Shown here piece by piece: positions 4,410 to 40,857 of a stretch of DNA of 42,783 bases (positions are counted from its first letter, which is position 1; the number at the start of each line of letters is the position of its first letter). The stretch covers positions 1 through 42,783 of the forward strand of contig CANHMH010000007.1 in the NCBI GenBank assembly GCA_947461635.1, written 5' to 3'. The position numbers and the translations under genes are program-made. The notes under the pieces are model-generated. The model had not been told where the DNA came from, did not search any database, and worked only from the letters and a program-made list of their open reading frames with translations. The stretch is from Flavobacteriales bacterium (GTDB taxonomy: Bacteria; Bacteroidota; Bacteroidia; Flavobacteriales_D; Crocinitomicaceae).

Positions 4410-4412
4410 TTT

Positions 4413-4580
4413 TAATGTGCTAGTTGCTTAATGTGCTAGTTGCTCAGTCTGCTAATGTGCTAGTTACTTAATGTGCTAATGTGTTAGTGTGAGTAAGCTA
4501 TCGGAGCGTGTCATTAGCAAATAAGTCCATTGGCAAATTAGCACATTAATGCATTAGCAAATTAGCACATTAGTTCATTA
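4413..4580. repeat. Octamer word array A with inverted arms
   Basis: The left arm (4413-4492) reads as ten consecutive 8-nt words, including TAATGTGC, TAGTTGCT, CAGTCTGC, TAGTTACT and TAATGTGT, with no register slip. A 19-nt non-word core (4493-4511, containing CTATCGGAGCG) follows. The right arm (4512-4580) is the reverse complement: read on the minus strand it gives TAATGAAC, TAATGTGC, TAATTTGC, TAATGCAT, CAATGGAC and so on. The arms could pair into a long imperfect hairpin. The array fills the gap between the bshB1 stop codon and the -7 box of the next gene. Confidence 0.9.
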
Positions 4581-7289: not shown

Positions 7290-7511
7290 TAATGTGCTAA
7301 TGTGCTAATGGGTTAATGTGCTAATGGACCAATGTGTTAATTAACCAATGTGCTAATGTGCTAGTTACTTAATGTGCTATTGTGCCAATGGACTAATTTG
7401 CTAATGTGCTAATGGACTAATGTGCTAATGTGCTAGTTACTTAATGTGCTATTGTGCTAATGTGCTAATGTGCTAATGGACCAATGTGTTAATTAACCAA
7501 TGTGCTAATTT
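7290..7511 (+). repeat. Octamer word array B, single orientation, 27 words without an indel
   Basis: The 222 nt parse as 27 consecutive 8-nt words plus TAATTT. TAATGTGC alternates with TAATGGGT, TAATGGAC, CAATGTGT, TAATTAAC, TAGTTACT, TATTGTGC and TAATTTGC. Two multi-word phrases recur exactly: a 32-nt phrase at 7322-7353 and 7474-7505, and another at 7354-7385 and 7426-7457. No inverted arm is visible. The 7284-7556 gap otherwise holds only about 45 nt before the HMA gene. Confidence 0.92.
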
Positions 7512-7556
7512 GGAGGGGAGATAGTGAGAAATGAATACTTTTTAAATTTATATAGG

Positions 7557-7889
7557 ATGAAAACAATAACCTTAAGTCTATTCTTTGTGCTATTTAGCAC
7601 TATTAGTTTTGGGCAAAAATCAATGACGAGTCAGATTCAGACGAATGCGCAATGTGGTGATTGTAAGGAACGAATCGAAGGGAAATTAAACTATACAAAA
7701 GGAATCAAATTTGCAGAACTCGATGACCAGACGAAAATTGTTACTGTTAAATACGACCCGAGTAAAATTGAACTTCTGACGATCAAGCAAACAATAGCGA
7801 AAATTGGTTATGATGCCGACGACGTAAAAGCGGATAAAGAAGACGTGGAGAAATTACCGAAGTGTTGTCAGCCGAATGGACATGAATAA
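7557..7889 (+). CDS. Exported heavy-metal-associated (HMA) domain protein
   Basis: 110 aa from ATG 7557: a signal peptide ending ISFGQ, then one ferredoxin-like HMA domain with the metal motif QCGDC (Cys33, Cys36), and a C-terminal KCCQPNGH that could add ligands. Such proteins bind Cu(I) or similar ions; the signal peptide places this one in the periplasm. The ORF-track GTG at 7524 adds eleven residues in front of an ideal signal peptide and is less likely. It probably works with the upstream TonB receptor and HYC_CC_PP protein. Its stop codon TAA is the first three bases of array C. Confidence 0.85.
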   Translation: MKTITLSLFFVLFSTISFGQKSMTSQIQTNAQCGDCKERIEGKLNYTKGIKFAELDDQTKIVTVKYDPSKIELLTIKQTIAKIGYDADDVKADKEDVEKLPKCCQPNGHE

Positions 7890-8078
7890 TGTGCTAATGT
7901 GCTAATTAACCAATGTGCTAATTACCTAATGTGCTAATTACCTAATGTGCTAGTTGTTCAATGTGCTAGTTGTCTAATTTGCCAGATAGTCAATGTGCTG
8001 ATTGTTTTATTACGTAGCTGAAGGCCATTAGCAAATTAGTCCATTGTCACATTAATCCATTAGCTCATTACTACATTA
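7887..8078. repeat. Octamer word array C with inverted arms
   Basis: The left arm (7887-8014) reads as sixteen 8-nt words (TAATGTGC, TAATTAAC, CAATGTGC, TAATTACC, TAGTTGTT, CAGATAGT and others). A 10-nt core TAGCTGAAGG (8015-8024) follows. The right arm (8025-8078) on the minus strand reads TAATGTAG, TAATGAGC, TAATGGAT, TAATGTGA, CAATGGAC and TAATTTGC. The first word supplies the TAA stop of the HMA gene. The last word ends 4 nt before the purF -7 box. Confidence 0.9.
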
Positions 8079-8110: not shown

Positions 8111-10012
8111 ATGAGTGATCCGATAAAACATGAGTGTGGAATAGCTCTTTTAAGGCTAAAAAAACCTTTGGAATATTATTTGGAAAAGTACGGGACAGCT
8201 CTGTACGGCATTAATAAAATGCACCTACTCATGGAAAAACAACACAATCGTGGACAAGATGGTGCTGGAATCGCGAACATTAAGTTCGATATGGAACCAG
8301 GTCAGCGGTACATTTCAAGAACTCGGTCAATTAAAAAGAATCCAACACAAGATATTTTTGATCAAATAAATGGGAAATTCCAACAAATTCAACAAGAAAA
8401 CCCTGATCATTTAAAAGATGTTAATTACCTAAAACAAAATGCAGGTTTCACCGGAGAATTGTTTTTAGGACACCTTCGTTATGGAACTTTTGGAAGGAAT
8501 TCAATTGAAAGTTGCCATCCATTTTTACGTCAAAACAACTGGATTACTCGCAACTTAGTTGTGGCTGGAAACTTCAATTTAACAAACGTCGACGAGTTGT
8601 TTCAAAACTTGGTCAACTTAGGTCAACATCCGAAAGAAAAAAGTGACACAGTAACGGTTTTAGAAAAAATAGGACATTTCCTTGATGTAGAGAATGAAGA
8701 CTTATATGCTCATTACAAATCACTTGGCTATTCTAAAGATCAAATATATGCTCGCATCGCGAAAGAAGTTAATTTGGTTAAGATCTTGAAAAAAGCATCC
8801 GAAGTTTGGGATGGTGGATATGCCATGGCAGGGCTACTTGGTCATGGTGACGCATTTGTCTTACGAGATCCAAATGGCATTCGTCCGGCATTTTGGTATG
8901 AAGATGATGAAATTTGTGTTGTTGCATCTGAACGACCAGTGATTCAAACTGCCTTCAACTTAACCAGTGATCAAATCCATGAACTTCAACCGGGACACGC
9001 ATTAATCGTGCGCAAAAACGGTGAAGTAAAAGAAGAGATGATTAACGCTCCTAGAGAGATTAAAAAATGTTCTTTTGAACGCATCTATTTCTCCCGCGGA
9101 TCAGATACTGACATTTACAAAGAACGAAAAGCTTTAGGAAGACTAATCGTTGATCAAGTACTAAGGACGGTTAATCACGATTTCGACAATAGTGTATTTT
9201 CATTCATTCCAAATACAGCGGAAGTTTCCTTTTACGGATTGATCAAAGGATTGGAAGAGAATTTGAATCAACAAAAAATCAAGCAAATTCAATCGCTTGG
9301 AAAAGATGCGAGTACAGAACAGCTAGCAGAAATCATCAACCGACGTGCACGTATCGAAAAGATTGCAATTAAGGATGCCAAGTTGCGTACCTTCATCACA
9401 CAAGATGACTCACGTGACGATCTTGTTGCGCATGTATATGACATCACTTATGGAAGTGTGCGTCCAGGAACAGATAACCTCATCGTAATTGATGACAGTA
9501 TCGTACGTGGAACAACTTTAAAACAAAGTATCTTACGAATTCTTGATCGTTTGTCACCGAAGAAAATCGTTGTTGTTTCGTCTGCACCGCAGATTCGTTA
9601 CCCGGATTGTTACGGAATCGACATGGCGAAAATGGGTGATTTCATCGCATTCGAAGCCGCTATTCAATTGTTACGTGACCGAAAAATGGAACGTGTAATA
9701 AAAGAAGTATACGAAAAATGCCTTGAACAAGTAAACCTTCCGAAGGAACAGGTTCGAAATTTCGTTAAAGAAATCTATGCGCCATTTAGCGACGAAGAAA
9801 TCTCAGCTAAAATCGCTGAATTATTGACTCCTCCTACAATTAAAGCAGAGGTGGAAATCGTATTTCAAACAGTAGAAAACTTACATATCGCTTGTCCAAA
9901 TCACCTTGGAGATTGGTACTTCACAGGAGATTATCCGACACCTGGTGGAAACAAAGTAGTGAATAAAGCATTTATCAATTGGGTGGAGAAAAGGAATGAG
10001 CGGGCATATTAA
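8111..10012 (+). CDS. purF: Amidophosphoribosyltransferase, long Bacteroidota form
   Basis: 633 aa, longer than the roughly 470-500 aa of classical PurF. The N-terminal Ntn-hydrolase glutaminase domain has its probable nucleophile at Cys9 in HECGIALL, so an eight-residue propeptide would have to be removed. The NRGQDGAG and HLRYGT motifs of the glutaminase follow. The PRPP-binding loop VIDDSIVRGTT lies near residues 457-470. A C-terminal extension of about 100 residues follows, ending in the GDWYFTGDYPTPGG region found in Bacteroidota homologues. The enzyme makes 5-phosphoribosylamine, the first committed step of purine synthesis. It has its own promoter; its stop TAA is part of array D. Confidence 0.9.
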   Translation: MSDPIKHECGIALLRLKKPLEYYLEKYGTALYGINKMHLLMEKQHNRGQDGAGIANIKFDMEPGQRYISRTRSIKKNPTQDIFDQINGKFQQIQQENPDHLKDVNYLKQNAGFTGELFLGHLRYGTFGRNSIESCHPFLRQNNWITRNLVVAGNFNLTNVDELFQNLVNLGQHPKEKSDTVTVLEKIGHFLDVENEDLYAHYKSLGYSKDQIYARIAKEVNLVKILKKASEVWDGGYAMAGLLGHGDAFVLRDPNGIRPAFWYEDDEICVVASERPVIQTAFNLTSDQIHELQPGHALIVRKNGEVKEEMINAPREIKKCSFERIYFSRGSDTDIYKERKALGRLIVDQVLRTVNHDFDNSVFSFIPNTAEVSFYGLIKGLEENLNQQKIKQIQSLGKDASTEQLAEIINRRARIEKIAIKDAKLRTFITQDDSRDDLVAHVYDITYGSVRPGTDNLIVIDDSIVRGTTLKQSILRILDRLSPKKIVVVSSAPQIRYPDCYGIDMAKMGDFIAFEAAIQLLRDRKMERVIKEVYEKCLEQVNLPKEQVRNFVKEIYAPFSDEEISAKIAELLTPPTIKAEVEIVFQTVENLHIACPNHLGDWYFTGDYPTPGGNKVVNKAFINWVEKRNERAY

Positions 10013-10090
10013 TGTGCTAATGATCTAATGTGCTAATGATTTAAAGTGCTAATGTGCTAATGATTCAATGTGCTGATGATTTAATGTGCT

Positions 10091-10104
10091 TCCGCTGCGG
10101 CGGA
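10091..10104 (+). other. Small GC-rich hairpin next to the left arm of element D
   Basis: TCCGC-TGCG-GCGGA, a perfect 5-bp stem directly after the last left-arm word, in otherwise AT-rich DNA. It is followed by GTTTTGATTTG rather than a clean T-run, so a terminator role is uncertain. Confidence 0.45.
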
Positions 10105-10173
10105 GTTTTGATTTGTTTTTATGATTTTGGGAGCTTGGGAGAATAAAATTCAACTTCTTGCGTTAAATGATTC

Positions 10174-10524
10174 ATGACTGATTCTAAGAACCCATTACTC
10201 ACTAAATCATTTGACTTTGCGCTACTAATTGTGTCGTTTTGTCAAGAGTTACAATCACAAAGAAGTTACGTTATTGCGCATCAACTGTTGAAATCAGGTA
10301 CTTCTGTTGGAGCAAATATTCGAGAAGCTCAGCATGCAGAGTCTAGAGCGGATTTCATTCACAAATTGAAAATTGCCTCAAAAGAATGCGAAGAAACAAC
10401 CTATTGGCTCGAAATCTGTCAAGCAAGTTATCCCATGAATTGTGATGTACTCATTAACGAATCGCTACAAATCGGCAAACTACTCAGTCGCATCATCTCC
10501 ACTGCAAAACGAAATAGATTCTAA
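10174..10524 (+). CDS. Four-helix-bundle protein, S23/IVP (Avd-like) family
   Basis: 116 aa, predominantly helical with four predicted amphipathic helices. The hallmark of the family is visible in LLKSGTSVGANIREAQHAES followed by FIHKLKIASKECEETTYWLEI. Relatives are encoded in intervening sequences of some 23S rRNA genes, and Avd of diversity-generating retroelements has the same fold; they are basic oligomeric proteins thought to bind nucleic acid. No reverse transcriptase or 23S fragment is seen here. The gene is enclosed by octamer arms with zero distance between its stop codon and the right arm. A promoter was not identified. Family call is firm; function unknown. Confidence 0.88.
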   Translation: MTDSKNPLLTKSFDFALLIVSFCQELQSQRSYVIAHQLLKSGTSVGANIREAQHAESRADFIHKLKIASKECEETTYWLEICQASYPMNCDVLINESLQIGKLLSRIISTAKRNRF

Positions 10525-10597
10525 ACTAATTAGCATATTACTCCATTAGCACCTTAGCACATTACTCCATAATCCCTACTTTTACAAAAAATTAAAT

Positions 10598-11800
10598 TTG
10601 TCACTGATCTACTCCTTTTTTATTCAATGCTATGGCTTGTTGATTCATGTAGCTTCACGGTTCAATCCGAAAGCGAAGGCCTGGATAGAAGGACGTCAGC
10701 TATGGCAAGAGAAACTTCGGAAACAAATCCCAAAGGAACGTAAGGTGTTGTGGTTTCATTGTGCTTCACTGGGCGAGTTCGACCAAGGATTGCCTCTGAT
10801 GAAGTCTATGAAGGAAGCTGAACCTAGTTTGTTCTTGTTAGTCAGTTTCTTTTCTCCATCGGGAATGGAACATTACGAGAAACGCGAAAAAATCGTTGAT
10901 GCTGCTTGCTACCTTCCGCTTGACACACTCCAGAATGCACGGACGTTTGTCAAAATAGTCCAACCACAAAAAGCGGTTTTCGTGAAATATGAATTCTGGC
11001 CAAATTTCCTTCGAGCCTTGGATGAAAAACACATCGAAACGGATGCTGTATCAGCAATTTTTCGTCCTTCGCAACTATACTTTCGTTGGTATGGAGGCTT
11101 TTTCCGAAGAGCATTAAAGCGCATTCATCATTTTTACGTGCAAAACGAAGAAAGTGCGGCACTTTTGAAATCTATTGGAATTCAGCAAATTACTATCTCA
11201 GGTGATATGCGCTACAAACGCGTTGTTCAAGCGAAGGAAATAGCGATGCAAACCTCAAATGAACTTCTAGCCTCATTTACCTCAGGTTCTACTACCCTGA
11301 TCCTCGGAAGTTCTTGGCCAAAAGAAGAAGGAATTGTACGCGATGCTCTTTTACATTTAGGAGAAATAAAGTTAATCATTGCACCGCACGATGTGAGTGA
11401 ACAGCATGTTGCATCCATTCAAGCAATGTTTCCTTCTGCATTACGCTATACAAAGTTAGAAATCGATCGTAAGGAAAAGCAACTTTTGAATGCTCAAATT
11501 CTGATCATCGATTGCATTGGACAATTAAGCGCTGCATACCGTTATGGAACAATTGCCTTTATCGGTGGAGGATTTACGGGTAGTCTGCATAATATTCTAG
11601 AACCAGCCGTTTACGGACTTCCACTCCTGTTTGGTCCAAAACACAGTAAATTCCCAGAATCAGATTTATTTCTTCAAAAAGGCTTCGCACTCGAGGTTAA
11701 CAATCATACAGATTTCACCGAAGGGTTCAACTTTCTACTTTCTAAAGTTAATTCACTGCGTACAGAAATGGAATCGTTTGTTGAGAGTCAAATTGGTTAA
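10598..11800 (+). CDS. waaA: 3-deoxy-D-manno-octulosonic acid (Kdo) transferase
   Basis: A 400-aa GT30 glycosyltransferase that adds Kdo to lipid A precursors at the inner membrane, consistent with a Gram-negative host. Visible landmarks are an N-terminal hydrophobic anchor (YSFFIQCYGLLIHVA), HCASLGEFDQG, KYEFWPNF, and the C-terminal GGGFTGSLHNILEPAVYG and FGPKHSKFPE. No ATG is available at the N terminus. TTG 10598 gives the expected family start, but it overlaps a TAAATTTG sequence. TACTTTTA (10577-10584, 7/8 match) is the better -7 candidate and leaves the TTG in the transcript. The stop TAA is the first three bases of array E. Confidence 0.9.
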   Translation: MSLIYSFFIQCYGLLIHVASRFNPKAKAWIEGRQLWQEKLRKQIPKERKVLWFHCASLGEFDQGLPLMKSMKEAEPSLFLLVSFFSPSGMEHYEKREKIVDAACYLPLDTLQNARTFVKIVQPQKAVFVKYEFWPNFLRALDEKHIETDAVSAIFRPSQLYFRWYGGFFRRALKRIHHFYVQNEESAALLKSIGIQQITISGDMRYKRVVQAKEIAMQTSNELLASFTSGSTTLILGSSWPKEEGIVRDALLHLGEIKLIIAPHDVSEQHVASIQAMFPSALRYTKLEIDRKEKQLLNAQILIIDCIGQLSAAYRYGTIAFIGGGFTGSLHNILEPAVYGLPLLFGPKHSKFPESDLFLQKGFALEVNNHTDFTEGFNFLLSKVNSLRTEMESFVESQIG

Positions 11801-12013
11801 TGTGCTAATGGACTAATGTGCTAATGTGTTAGTTAGTTAGTTAGTTAATTTGCTAATGTGCTAGTTGCTTAATTTGCTAATGGACTAATTTGCTTGTTGA
11901 TTGATGTTCTAGATACTTTCAGGCGCAGTGGAAATCCAATGGCACATTAGCACATCGAATCATTAGCACATTGAATCATTAGCACATTGAATCATTAGCA
12001 CATTAGCACATTA
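11798..12013. repeat. Octamer word array E with inverted arms between convergent genes
   Basis: The left arm (11798-11917) reads as fifteen 8-nt words (TAATGTGC, TAATGGAC, TAGTTAGT twice, TAATTTGC and others). The core is 11918-11935 (contains AGGCGCAGTG). The right arm (11936-12013) on the minus strand is TAATGTGC twice, then TAATGATT-CAATGTGC alternating, one copy as CGATGTGC. The outermost words supply the TAA stop of waaA on the left and the TAA stop of the beta-barrel gene on the right. As a long inverted repeat between convergent genes it may act as a bidirectional terminator. Confidence 0.9.
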
Positions 12014-12778: not shown

Positions 12779-15271
12779 TTATTTCTTTTTCAGAAAGATG
12801 CGTAAAAATGGGAAATAACGTTGTATGCGATTTCTCCATTTTCGTTTGTTTTTTGAAGGTTTATCAAAATACTCGTTTCCATTGGAACCATAACCATAGC
12901 CGTAGCCATAACCGTAACCGTAACCGTAGCCATAACCATAGCCAGATCCATAACCGTAGCCGTATCCATAACCTTTACCGGTAAGGTCAGTTGCGTTCAC
13001 CAAAATGGCCATGTTCGGCATTTTCTTTTCATGGTAAAGGCTAGCAGGAATGCTCAACATTCGACGATCTAAGTGCTCTGCTCTTGCCACATATACAACG
13101 ATATCAGAATACTTGTGTATATGCAAAGAATCCGCTACCAAGGCAACAGGAGCTGTATCTAGAATCACATAATCATACCTAGATTTGGCGATTTCGATTA
13201 ATTCTGCTAAACGTGGTCTTAATAGTAATTCTGATGGATTCGGAGGAATGTCCCCTGAAATGATATAATCTAAGTTCGGATTTCCTTGATCATGGATAAC
13301 CACATCATCAAAAGTTAAGTCTTCTTTTACAATGTAATTCGTTACCCCAATGGTTTTAACAACATCGACATATCGTGCAATTTTTGGAGCGCGTAAATCC
13401 AATCCAATCAACAGGACTTTTTTATCGCTATGTGAAAGTGTATGTCCAATATTGATGGAAATAAATGTTTTACCTTCACCCGCAATGGAAGAAGTGACCA
13501 TGATAACCTTAGATCCCTTTTTATCATTATCCAATAAAAAAGTCAAATTTGTTCGAATCATCCGAAATGCTTCGGCAATGTGCGTTCTTGCATTCTTTGT
13601 AGCAACAATTGTTCTATCTGAATCATCTCCTTTTGGAATTTCTCCGATAGCAGGAATCTTAAATTTAATTAAGTCGTGAAGTCCATGGACTTTACTATCC
13701 AACAAATACCTCAAATAGATGATTCCAAACGGAACTAATAAACCAATTACCGTAGCAAAAATGTAATATTTTTTGCGGTTTGGTTCAGTTGGTAATCCGT
13801 TACTACTTGCCTCATAAATTATCTTGGTATTTCCAATCGAGGAAGCTGTTTTAATTTCGTTTTCTTCCCGTTTCTGTAGAAGGAAAATATACAGTGTTTC
13901 TTTGATTTTTTGCTGACGTTCTATGTCTCTAAATTCTCTTTCATAACCAGGAACTGAAGCAATTTTATCCTTATAGCGTTGATCTACTACGTTTAATGAA
14001 TTTAAGGTAATTTTTAACCTTGACTTATTTGATTTCAATCCTTCCTCAATAGAATGTCGCAAGCCAATTAATTGATCATCAATCTTTTGAACTATTGGAT
14101 TCTTAGTGCTTGAATTCTTCATTAAACGTTGACGATCCAACAAAAGCTTGTTACACTGTGTGGTCATTGCCACGATGGAACCATCCTCAAAACCTAGATT
14201 TGAAGGCAATAATTCAGTATAATCTTGGTGTTTCTGCAGGTATTCTTGCAGATAATCATTCAAGCTCAATTGTACAGATGTCTGAATAATTTTTTCTTCA
14301 GTCGCACTTTCTTTCGCGACAAATTCACCGCCTTGGGTGGTCACATCAACGATATTATGTTTCGTTTTGAAAGCCTCAACATCCTTCTCTACCTCTGACA
14401 ACTCTTCAGAAATGTAGGACATTCTATCATTGATAAACGCACTTGTCTTGCGCGTCATTTCATTTTTATCATAGATGCTTTGAGTTTGATGCTCCGTAAT
14501 TAGCGCAGTGATGATTTCGTTGTTTTTGTCGATTACTGGTCCGTTATAAGAAATGGAGATCAAATCCGAAAATTTATCAACACGTTCAAGCGTTATATCC
14601 GACGCCAATTTTAATGCTACATCTTTAATTGGTTCAAGAAATACGATGTATTGATTTCCAACAGTAGAGCCAATAAAATTTGCGTTTTTCACAAAGGAAA
14701 TTTGACCAATTTTAGTCGAAACAGGCGTGTTAAAGGAATGTGAGCCTAAATAAGTGTTCTCATCGATGTGAAGTTCAAATCGAGTGGGAGAAATTACTTT
14801 TAATTGAAAACTAGCACTTTTATCGTAAAGCAAACTATCATTTCGAACAGATTCTAGCGTAAAAGGTGTGTTTTTGTATAACTCAGATTTTTTAATTCCA
14901 GCATTTTGGCCCACCATTAAATACCTGCAGTTTAGTTTTAGGTTTCTAGCAACACTATTCAGTATCGTAGGTGTTTTAAATAACGCTATTTCATTCTCTA
15001 ACTTCGTGCTTTTTTCTGTTAAACCAAGGTCTTGAAAAGCAGAAAGCCCTTTTAAAACATCGTCTTCTTGATTTTGAATTAATATCGTTGCCTGTGAGTT
15101 ATATATGGGTGTAGAATAACGCAAAAAGGTATACGCAACAAAACAAGAAACAAACACGCCAACAGCGAACCACAACCAAAAATGAAGGTAACGATCAATG
15201 AGTTCACGTATGTTTATCGTTGGTTCAGGTGCATCTACTTGAGACTGCTGTACGTTGAAATCCTCTTGCAT
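12779..15271 (-). CDS. Wzc-like polysaccharide co-polymerase and tyrosine autokinase with Gly-Tyr tail
   Basis: 830 aa. A Wzz-type N-terminal TM (about 34-52) precedes a periplasmic coiled-coil/GNVR region, a second TM (about residues 500-520) and a cytoplasmic BY-kinase domain. The kinase has Walker A SSIAGEGKT (near residue 598), an A' motif LLIGLDLR and Walker B YVILDTAP (near 702). The tail is a Gly-Tyr tract with 13 tyrosines, then a basic C terminus. Such proteins control chain length and export together with Wza through cycles of Tyr phosphorylation. Start and upstream stop overlap as TAATG, so translation is coupled to the Wza-like gene. Confidence 0.92.
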   Translation of the reverse strand: MQEDFNVQQSQVDAPEPTINIRELIDRYLHFWLWFAVGVFVSCFVAYTFLRYSTPIYNSQATILIQNQEDDVLKGLSAFQDLGLTEKSTKLENEIALFKTPTILNSVARNLKLNCRYLMVGQNAGIKKSELYKNTPFTLESVRNDSLLYDKSASFQLKVISPTRFELHIDENTYLGSHSFNTPVSTKIGQISFVKNANFIGSTVGNQYIVFLEPIKDVALKLASDITLERVDKFSDLISISYNGPVIDKNNEIITALITEHQTQSIYDKNEMTRKTSAFINDRMSYISEELSEVEKDVEAFKTKHNIVDVTTQGGEFVAKESATEEKIIQTSVQLSLNDYLQEYLQKHQDYTELLPSNLGFEDGSIVAMTTQCNKLLLDRQRLMKNSSTKNPIVQKIDDQLIGLRHSIEEGLKSNKSRLKITLNSLNVVDQRYKDKIASVPGYEREFRDIERQQKIKETLYIFLLQKREENEIKTASSIGNTKIIYEASSNGLPTEPNRKKYYIFATVIGLLVPFGIIYLRYLLDSKVHGLHDLIKFKIPAIGEIPKGDDSDRTIVATKNARTHIAEAFRMIRTNLTFLLDNDKKGSKVIMVTSSIAGEGKTFISINIGHTLSHSDKKVLLIGLDLRAPKIARYVDVVKTIGVTNYIVKEDLTFDDVVIHDQGNPNLDYIISGDIPPNPSELLLRPRLAELIEIAKSRYDYVILDTAPVALVADSLHIHKYSDIVVYVARAEHLDRRMLSIPASLYHEKKMPNMAILVNATDLTGKGYGYGYGYGSGYGYGYGYGYGYGYGYGYGSNGNEYFDKPSKNKRKWRNRIQRYFPFLRIFLKKK
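12884..12979 (-). repeat. Gly-Tyr codon tract in the Wzc-like kinase tail
   Basis: A 6-nt coding repeat (GGN-TAY) giving four GY, one GS, nine GY and a final GS. It is the probable autophosphorylation cluster. Synonymous codons vary between units, but the tract is still a candidate for length change by slippage in 6-nt steps, which would keep the frame. Confidence 0.85.
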
Positions 15272-23071: not shown

Positions 23072-23205
23072 TAATGGGCTAATTGTTAATGTGCTAATGG
23101 TTTAATTTGCCAATTTGCTAATTGTTAATGTGCTAATGGTTTAATTTGCTAATGTGCTAATTAGTTACTGCGCTAATGATGCTATTTGATAATTTGCTAA
23201 TGGAT
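23072..23205. repeat. Octamer word array F, single orientation, upstream of the carbamoyltransferase
   Basis: The plus strand reads TAATGGGC, TAATTGT (7 nt), TAATGTGC, TAATGGTT, TAATTTGC, CAATTTGC, TAATTGT (7 nt), TAATGTGC, TAATGGTT, TAATTTGC and so on, 17 words with two 7-nt slips at the same word. A 31-nt phrase is repeated exactly (23080-23110 and 23119-23149). No inverted arm. It starts 2 nt from the carbamoyltransferase ATG and ends 44 nt from the preceding stop codon, the only array lying inside the minus-strand locus. Confidence 0.9.
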
Positions 23206-40223: not shown

Positions 40224-40258
40224 GTTATTCGTTTTTCGTCGTTCGATTTTCGTGTGCG
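40224..40258. repeat. Heptamer word array, short part next to the Wzt-like gene
   Basis: On the plus strand five consecutive 7-nt words: GTTATTC, GTTTTTC, GTCGTTC, GATTTTC, GTGTGCG. Same alphabet and register as the larger array at 40726-40857 on the other side of the S23-like gene. Confidence 0.75.
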
Positions 40259-40310: not shown

Positions 40311-40655
40311 TTACTTTATAGACGAAATCAATTTATTTAACATCATCGTAATTCGATCAGATTTTGTAGAAATCATGTCATACTTTTCCAATGAAATATA
40401 TCCTAATTCTTTTGATAAAAACAAATGATATTTGGTCTCTGCATTTGAAGCTTTTGCGATGTAAAGAAATTGTCTAAATTCCTTATTGTATTGTCTCGCC
40501 TGCCCTTCAATTATATTCGTTGGAACGCTACTAGAACTTCTTTTCATTTGTGAAGTCAAATTGTATTGTTCTTTTTTTGGTAAGTCGTCAGCAACTCTAT
40601 AAACTTCCATTGTCATTTCATGAGCTAACTTCCATACTTGCAACTTGTTTTCCAT
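40311..40655 (-). CDS. Four-helix-bundle protein, S23/IVP (Avd-like) family
   Basis: 114 aa, helical. The family core is clear: YNLTSQMKRSSSSVPTNIIE, then RQYNKEFRQFLYIAKASNAE. It belongs to the larger S23 subgroup (LTSQ.RRS..S.P.NI.EG) and is clearly diverged from the copy at 10174. It lies between two heptamer arrays and between the Wzm-like and Wzt-like genes, in the direction of the operon. Function unknown; nucleic-acid binding is suggested by relatives in rRNA intervening sequences and retroelements. Confidence 0.9.
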   Translation of the reverse strand: MENKLQVWKLAHEMTMEVYRVADDLPKKEQYNLTSQMKRSSSSVPTNIIEGQARQYNKEFRQFLYIAKASNAETKYHLFLSKELGYISLEKYDMISTKSDRITMMLNKLISSIK

Positions 40656-40725
40656 AATGATTGATTTGAGGTTAAAGGATTATGTTGATCTATATCCTTA
40701 ACGCTGTCATGGAGGAAAATATTTC

Positions 40726-40857
40726 GTTGTTCGCTATTAGTTGTTCGTTGTTTGCTTTTCGTTGTTCGTTGTTCGCAGACAGTTTTTTGTTACACTTCGT
40801 GGCCTAGTCGATGGACGATTTACGAACTTCGAGAAACGAACGATGCAAAGCGACATG
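40726..40857. repeat. Heptamer word array with inverted arm, upstream of the second S23-like gene
   Basis: The forward arm (40726-40788) reads in 7-nt register GTTGTTC, GCTATTA, GTTGTTC, GTTGTTT, GCTTTTC, GTTGTTC, GTTGTTC, GCAGACA, GTTTTTT. After about 20 nt the inverted arm (40809-40843) reads CGATGGA, CGATTTA, CGAACTT, CGAGAAA, CGAACGA, the reverse-complement type of the same TTCG words, with one further CGACATG at 40851-40857. The layout copies the octamer arrays with another alphabet and word length. Confidence 0.8.

Follow-up and report, generated by a model that had tools for sequence, protein, structure and literature searches.

The purF–kdtA Gap and Its S23 Gene

The window analysed in this work, by which we mean the whole stretch of 42,783 nt, belongs to a genome (G000) of 2.38 Mb in 217 contigs that is 83% complete and that, judged from its genes, is probably from Bacteroidota. 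An open reading frame of 633 aa on the forward strand (8111–10012), which from its sequence we take to be purF, is followed in the same direction by a second that we likewise take to be kdtA (10598–11800), and an S23 gene lies in the gap between them. These names, and those of sdhA, sufB, rpsO, pnp and scoA used below, are our own reading of the sequences. Orthologs of purF were present in 54 of the 61 genomes of the genus.

The S23 gene (23S_rRNA_IVP, four-helix bundle; P0001, 116 aa) occupies 10174–10524 of the forward strand. Its product belongs to this family by its matches to PF05635 (E 4.4e-22; 78.7 bits, cut-off 33.8) and TIGR02436 (E 4.5e-27; 94.4 bits, cut-off 24), and the fold was assigned on the basis of these profiles and of a match to PDB 2RLD (E 6.7e-25). 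PF05635 was the only match in the profile search of P0001, with no HUH/Y1 transposase returned and no known catalytic domain found in the S23 protein.

The gene is flanked by two arrays of short words. The left (5′) arm, identified by repeat search at 10010–10090 of the forward strand, is composed of about 10 octamers of the TAATGTGC/TAATGATT type, and the stop codon of purF is the TAA of its first word at 10010. Nested at the end of this arm is a palindrome, TTCCGCTGCGGCGGAG (10090–10106), which is followed by 68 nt and then by the S23 ATG at 10174. The right (3′) arm (10525–10575, minus strand) consists of about six reverse-complement octamers and, as an earlier note on this DNA had stated, begins at 10525 on the base directly after the S23 stop codon. 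The same note had described the gene as enclosed by a forward and an inverted octamer arm; both arms are indeed present, but the left one does not touch the start codon and the two are unequal, with lengths of 81 nt and about 50 nt, respectively. Repeat search around the gene gave six arm pairs of 28–41 nt that are 75–79% complementary, and TAATGTGCTAATGTGC was found 14 times in the genome against 0 occurrences for its reversed control.

With regard to the features of a classical IS or MITE, no transposase is present between the arms, and comparison of sites was precise to the stop and start codons, with no resolvable target-site duplication. Folding of the S23 gene and arms taken together was no better than that of shuffled sequences (z −0.5), and a special RNA fold for this unit was rejected.

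Two further observations concern this gap. The kdtA gene has the same direction as purF in the window, G015 and G036. The two are convergent in relatives lacking the element, and in the majority of relatives overall, G002 and G089 among them; the change of orientation is an inversion with word arrays D and E at its ends. The octamer arrays of a locus in G015 (L181) contain many nested copies of a palindrome, TTCCGCCGCGGCGGAG, of which a variant occurs once in array D at 10090–10106, and it may represent a second small repeat family.

Gene-Less Arrays and Other S23 Genes of the Genome

At least four more gaps in the window are occupied by S23-less arrays of the word that belongs to the resident S23 gene. 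Array A (4412–4580) is two-armed and lies in a stop-to-start gap; array B (7290–7512, forward strand) is one-armed; array C (7887–8078) is two-armed, its first word supplying the stop codon of the upstream gene; array E (11798–12013), also two-armed, spans both stop codons of convergent genes; and array F (23072–23202, forward strand) is one-armed with a higher-order unit of 39 nt. All five have their word in common with the resident S23 gene. Arrays A and E can form hairpins, the folding of A being better than all 200 shuffles (z −3.05) and that of E reaching a z of −5.2 against shuffles, and the word is of 8 nt here compared to 7 in most S23 loci. It had been claimed that arrays A, C and E possess the arms of the S23 locus around a core of 10–19 nt; their two-armed, gene-less nature holds, but the core of E is of about 40 nt.

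There are three S23 genes in this genome, two of them inside the window. The second (40311–40655, minus strand; PF05635, E 4.5e-37) has 7-mer words of its own on both sides, unlike the octamers of the first: CGAACAA heptamers upstream (40723–40779, minus strand) and CGAACGACGAAAAACGAATAAC words downstream (40224–40246, minus strand), the latter in the same orientation as the upstream words. The third, situated on another contig, has no arms.

A gene-less array on contig C69 of the same genome (L318, about 1040–1180) combines the words of both S23 genes in the window, with one side made of the CGAACAA type and the opposite side of the TAATGTGC type. A tandem array of the hexamer AACCAT is also found in the window, within a long minus-strand coding sequence (12886–12973).

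The reading that we consider probable is that the S23 gene and its two word arms form one element with gene-less derivatives, the protein keeping or copying the arrays in trans.

Words and S23 Lineages among Relatives

Array counts across genomes were taken from pattern searches, and the genomes compared are drafts. In the set of relatives, TAATGTGC arrays were found only in G000, G002, G015, G032, G036 and G047, along with one lone hit. The matching S23 type is present in G000, G015, G036 (frameshifted) and G002 (at another site), and it was not found in the array-bearing G032 (66% complete) and G047 (59% complete). At purF–kdtA in G036 (L090) the S23 copy is frameshifted and the arrays remain. 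G089, which is 99% complete and has about 95% PurF identity, possesses neither this S23 type nor its arrays. Its gaps A and B measure 33 and 12 nt, both with no array, its purF–kdtA gap is of about 35 nt, and gap E is array-free. The second word, TCATTCACTCATAA, was likewise found in the genomes carrying its own S23 lineage, where S23-less sites are included, and in one lone hit. The proposal of an autonomous element with gene-less relatives is thus well supported, arrays being almost confined to genomes or clades with the matching S23 lineage. As the TAATGTGC arrays represent one clade, the co-occurrence of gene and array there may be one historical event.

Across phyla, and after control for GC content, the similarity of words tracks that of the S23 proteins (Mantel r 0.26, p < 0.0005). 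Arms of GGCAGTC are common to the S23 of a Rivularia and of alphaproteobacteria, and arms of GGGTGTA to those of one member of Fibrobacterales and one Nodularia. The S23 genes themselves are under purifying selection, with dN/dS of about 0.1 (about 0.05–0.12 in most pairs).

The arrays could instead be spread by another agent, such as an unlinked transposase, or recombination or repair by the host at hairpins, with S23 being a passenger or dependent on the arrays. Such an agent would fit with arrays that far outnumber S23 genes, with the hybrid two-word array at L318, with an S23 protein lacking a known catalytic domain and with the two genomes (G032 and G047) in which arrays were found and no S23 of the type was. 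We nevertheless think it quite improbable, given that S23 genes are associated with arrays of unrelated words in many phyla, that word relatedness follows S23 relatedness across these phyla, and that at one locus (L081) an S23 gene with minimal arms stands alone in its gap.

Arms at S23 Loci of Other Genomes

S23 loci were collected from 80 relatives, 118 genomes of the phylum, plasmids and a named multi-phylum collection. Ninety of the 118 phylum genomes carry S23, with up to 16 copies each. Plasmid loci were found with a consensus-like S23 query, and statements on these rest on the fetched loci themselves. Loci L234–L313 were found with a four-member alignment (A2) and are therefore biased towards A2 patterns. 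Short-word arms were seen at most of the S23 genes read, with each lineage having its own word.

For quantification of the arms, the upstream flank of each gene was scored against the reverse complement of its downstream flank. In the order, S23 flanks had a median score of 18, and 522 control genes from these loci one of 12 (p 3e-19); in the multi-phylum sample, a non-random one drawn by two peptide patterns, the score was 22 compared to 11 for control genes (p 4e-28). With the threshold set at the 95th percentile of control genes, arms, either inverted or direct, were present at 60 of 75 multi-phylum S23 loci against 8% of control genes, and at 45 of 86 S23 loci of the order against 7%, which bears out the suggestion that S23 genes lie beside word arrays more often than other genes do. 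The remaining 41 of the 86 order genes passed neither arm threshold, and one conserved S23 clade (C4:16381 and its orthologs) has no arms. At approximately 5–10% of S23 loci the arms are in direct orientation only, not inverted, so a stem is not obligatory. Together with the armless S23 genes and the z of −0.5 for the whole element in the window, these direct arms set limits on models that need a perfect stem.

In a set of 78 S23 loci that spans more than 15 phyla, own flank pairs scored 22 compared to 10 for mismatched pairs. Their summed score was 1848 against a maximum of 1128 in 20,000 permutations, a comparison in which phylogenetic dependence between the 78 loci partly remains. Where S23 flanks were strongly periodic, the period was almost always of 7 or 8 nt: lags 7 and 8 accounted for 47 and 10 of 57 multi-phylum loci, for 21 and 11 of a set of 36, and for 7 and 5 of 12 in Bacteroidota.

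These figures bear on another explanation of the arrays, namely coincidence combined with replication slippage in AT-rich gaps, with S23 merely lying near some of them. Short tandem words are prone to slippage, and arrays of such words, for the most part with a length of 7 or 8 nt, are also present at 10–19% of control genes in S23-bearing genomes. Arrays at control genes are to be expected if gene-less arrays are scattered through S23-bearing genomes. Slippage would also have to place the same word, inverted, on opposite sides of one gene and to keep to periods of 7 and 8 nt. With own pairs exceeding the permutation maximum and with the control genes scoring as they do, this explanation was rejected, and we give it next to no credence.

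Insertion Sites

In the order, 53 of 73 S23 genes have neighbours that both point in one direction, and the median gaps on the two sides are of 79 and 60 nt. The groups found at sdhA–sdhB, sufB–sufC, metH and purF–kdtA are each a single clade. At sdhA–sdhB, one S23 clade (support 98/85) is present in seven genomes of six families with differing words, and the arms pair well inside most of these loci.

The scoA–scoB gap allows occupied and empty sites to be compared. In twelve genomes it measures 1–11 nt and holds no element; in G003 and G005 it contains S23 elements of unrelated lineages, each with word arms of its own; and in G034 and G042 an array is present with no S23 gene. The empty sites in close species that had been sought are therefore found, both here and at gaps A, B and E of G089. 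In G003, the S23 gene at scoA–scoB (L068) nests with that at rpsO–pnp (L059), the word being common to both and the site new. The two loci align only through the S23 gene and the words, and the copies are not very recent (pS 0.58).

The main rival to a mobile element is a host-serving RNA device, in which S23 would bind the arms of its own mRNA and regulate the processing, stability or translation of the operon through autoregulation or coupling; the words would have spread by ordinary duplication and mobility would be incidental. S23 has lasted long in the same operon gaps (sdhA–sdhB, sufB–sufC, rpsO–pnp) under purifying selection, and its arms differ between orthologs yet mostly stay paired, which is in keeping with such a device. 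Rings that bind spaced repeats are known, TRAP being one, and an action on transcript stability or translational coupling has been proposed for the cyanobacterial 7-bp repeats (PMC2670836). Many close relatives, however, have no element in the same gaps, and the sites are very diverse with no common function. Insertions in rRNA, in plasmid cas operons and in methyltransferase genes are likewise ill-suited to one regulatory role, and on balance we regard the host device as unlikely.

Three S23 elements are inside DNA-methyltransferase or type IIG restriction genes (L187 in G148, L202 in G113 and L210 in G133), where the host frame is open through the whole element (752, 728, and 1103 codons, respectively) and S23 occupies another frame; a Hymenobacter homolog of the L187 host has no insert. 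On cyanobacterial plasmids (L227, L228, and L231), S23 genes with short-word arms occupy the cas6–cas4 and cmr2–cmr3 intervals.

Relation to Known Systems

No report of S23 with word arms was found in the open-access literature. S23 was first found in 23S rRNA intervening sequences (IVS), with Leptospira, Coxiella and Azospirillum named as carriers. In the Coxiella IVS, terminal inverted repeats form a 28-bp stem that is cut by RNase III, and tandem heptamers stand directly 5′ of the S23p start (PMC4990558). In Azospirillum lipoferum 4B, S23 is inside the 23S rRNA gene, as judged by its flanks, with heptamer words in both arms. The element of the window (10010–10575) resembles these IVS in having an S23 reading frame between complementary arms. 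It differs from them in sitting in a protein-operon gap, flanked by two protein genes, in having arms that are long word arrays, and in that its word also occurs in gene-less arrays scattered through the genome. The 23S rRNA context was rejected as a general rule for S23: about 200 S23 genes were checked, and L233 was the single one with 23S-like flanks.

The short tandemly repeated repetitive sequences (STRR) of cyanobacteria are 7-bp, hairpin-forming repeats in operon gaps, described with no function assigned to them (PMC2670836). Cyanobacterial S23 genes, some of them in CRISPR-Cas operons, lie between just such heptamers (GGGAACA, GGGAGTA), and the cyanobacterial repeats are probably the same thing as the S23 word arrays. 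Unlike STRR, the words of the window are of 8 nt, and no connection to S23 is drawn in that paper. S23 genes in cas loci had been noted earlier, with no mention of repeats (PMC3936711). Heptamers of TAACTGA form intergenic arrays directly before start codons in Beggiatoaceae, Cyanobacteria and Bacteroidetes, and their patchy distribution suggests transfer, with no agent named (PMC4679880). The likeness lies in the intergenic short-word arrays; unlike for those of the window, no S23 gene is mentioned for these repeats.

The comparison with RAYT transposases and REP/BIME repeats made in the earlier note is apt insofar as a single gene has short palindromic repeats at its sides and many gene-less repeats dependent on it, which are scattered through the genomes where the gene is present. 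It is an analogy only, since the S23 element has no HUH/Y1 transposase and its arms are arrays of 7- or 8-nt words that differ by lineage.

As to the link to Avd of diversity-generating retroelements (DGR), homology of S23 (PF05635) and Avd, with a common four-helix-bundle fold, is reported in the literature (PMC10053308). This homology would favour a retro-mechanism in which the words are written by a reverse transcriptase with the help of S23. Unlike the setting of Avd, however, no match to RVT_1 was found in the four genomes with the S23 type of the window and its arrays, namely G000 (83% complete) and G002, G015, and G036 (93–99% complete). A reverse-transcriptase partner was rejected for this reason, and we judge the retro-mechanism very improbable.

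Rickettsia palindromic elements are palindromic inserts able to sit in-frame in coding genes. The in-frame S23 inserts at L187, L202 and L210 are similar, and differ from them in that the S23 elements carry a gene of their own in another frame.

Proposed Mechanism

The gene-arm unit occurs in many phyla with a period of 7 or 8 nt, its protein is under selection and its word is related as the proteins are. Empty sites, array-only sites and a pair of paralogs with common words in one genome all exist. On these grounds we return to the reading of one element with gene-less derivatives. Its architecture would be that of the S23-carrying 23S rRNA IVS, but its place is in protein operons, where in most cases it fills precisely the interval from a stop codon to the start codon that follows. 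Its arms are tandem words of 7 or 8 nt, usually complementary, so that the transcript could form a long imperfect stem with the S23 frame in its loop. Each S23 lineage has its own word, and arrays A, B, C, E, and F would be gene-less derivatives bearing the word of the resident S23.

Solved relatives of S23 form a pentameric ring. The arms would offer many copies of one word, usually as an RNA stem or as cruciform DNA, and the S23 ring would most likely recognise its own words in single-stranded nucleic acid or in hairpins. Acting in trans, it would most likely preserve arrays of its own word and occasionally place copies of them in new gaps, sometimes together with the gene and sometimes not. 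As the gap is non-coding, and the stem could be excised or passed over, such insertions would be tolerated. The binding of S23 to its words, the copying of arrays and any processing or cleavage of RNA are thus activities that we infer for the protein, which would drive the spread or upkeep of the arrays.

A broader generalisation, which we put forward tentatively and regard as possible, is that a class of mobile elements exists in many bacterial phyla with S23 genes as its autonomous members. In these, a small nucleic-acid-binding ring protein with no known transposase or polymerase domain would spread and maintain lineage-specific arrays of 7- or 8-nt words, and the rRNA IVS, the cyanobacterial heptamers and the arrays of the window would be its forms. 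If true, this would add a class of selfish elements with no recognised transposase.

To our knowledge, S23 proteins have been without a known function for the roughly thirty years since they were discovered in insertions of rRNA. How short-word arrays like the 7-bp repeats of cyanobacteria arose is, as far as we know, an old open question. The function of S23 and the origin of such arrays are here tied together across many phyla; gene and arms as one element would explain where the word arrays come from. Each S23 protein gains a candidate cognate word, which makes both questions testable by ordinary binding and deletion experiments.

The octamer word of the window may have been taken from the region upstream of purF. 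In G089, a single GCACATTA word is present upstream of purF (L180), directly before a TATCTTTG promoter-like motif and with no arrays.
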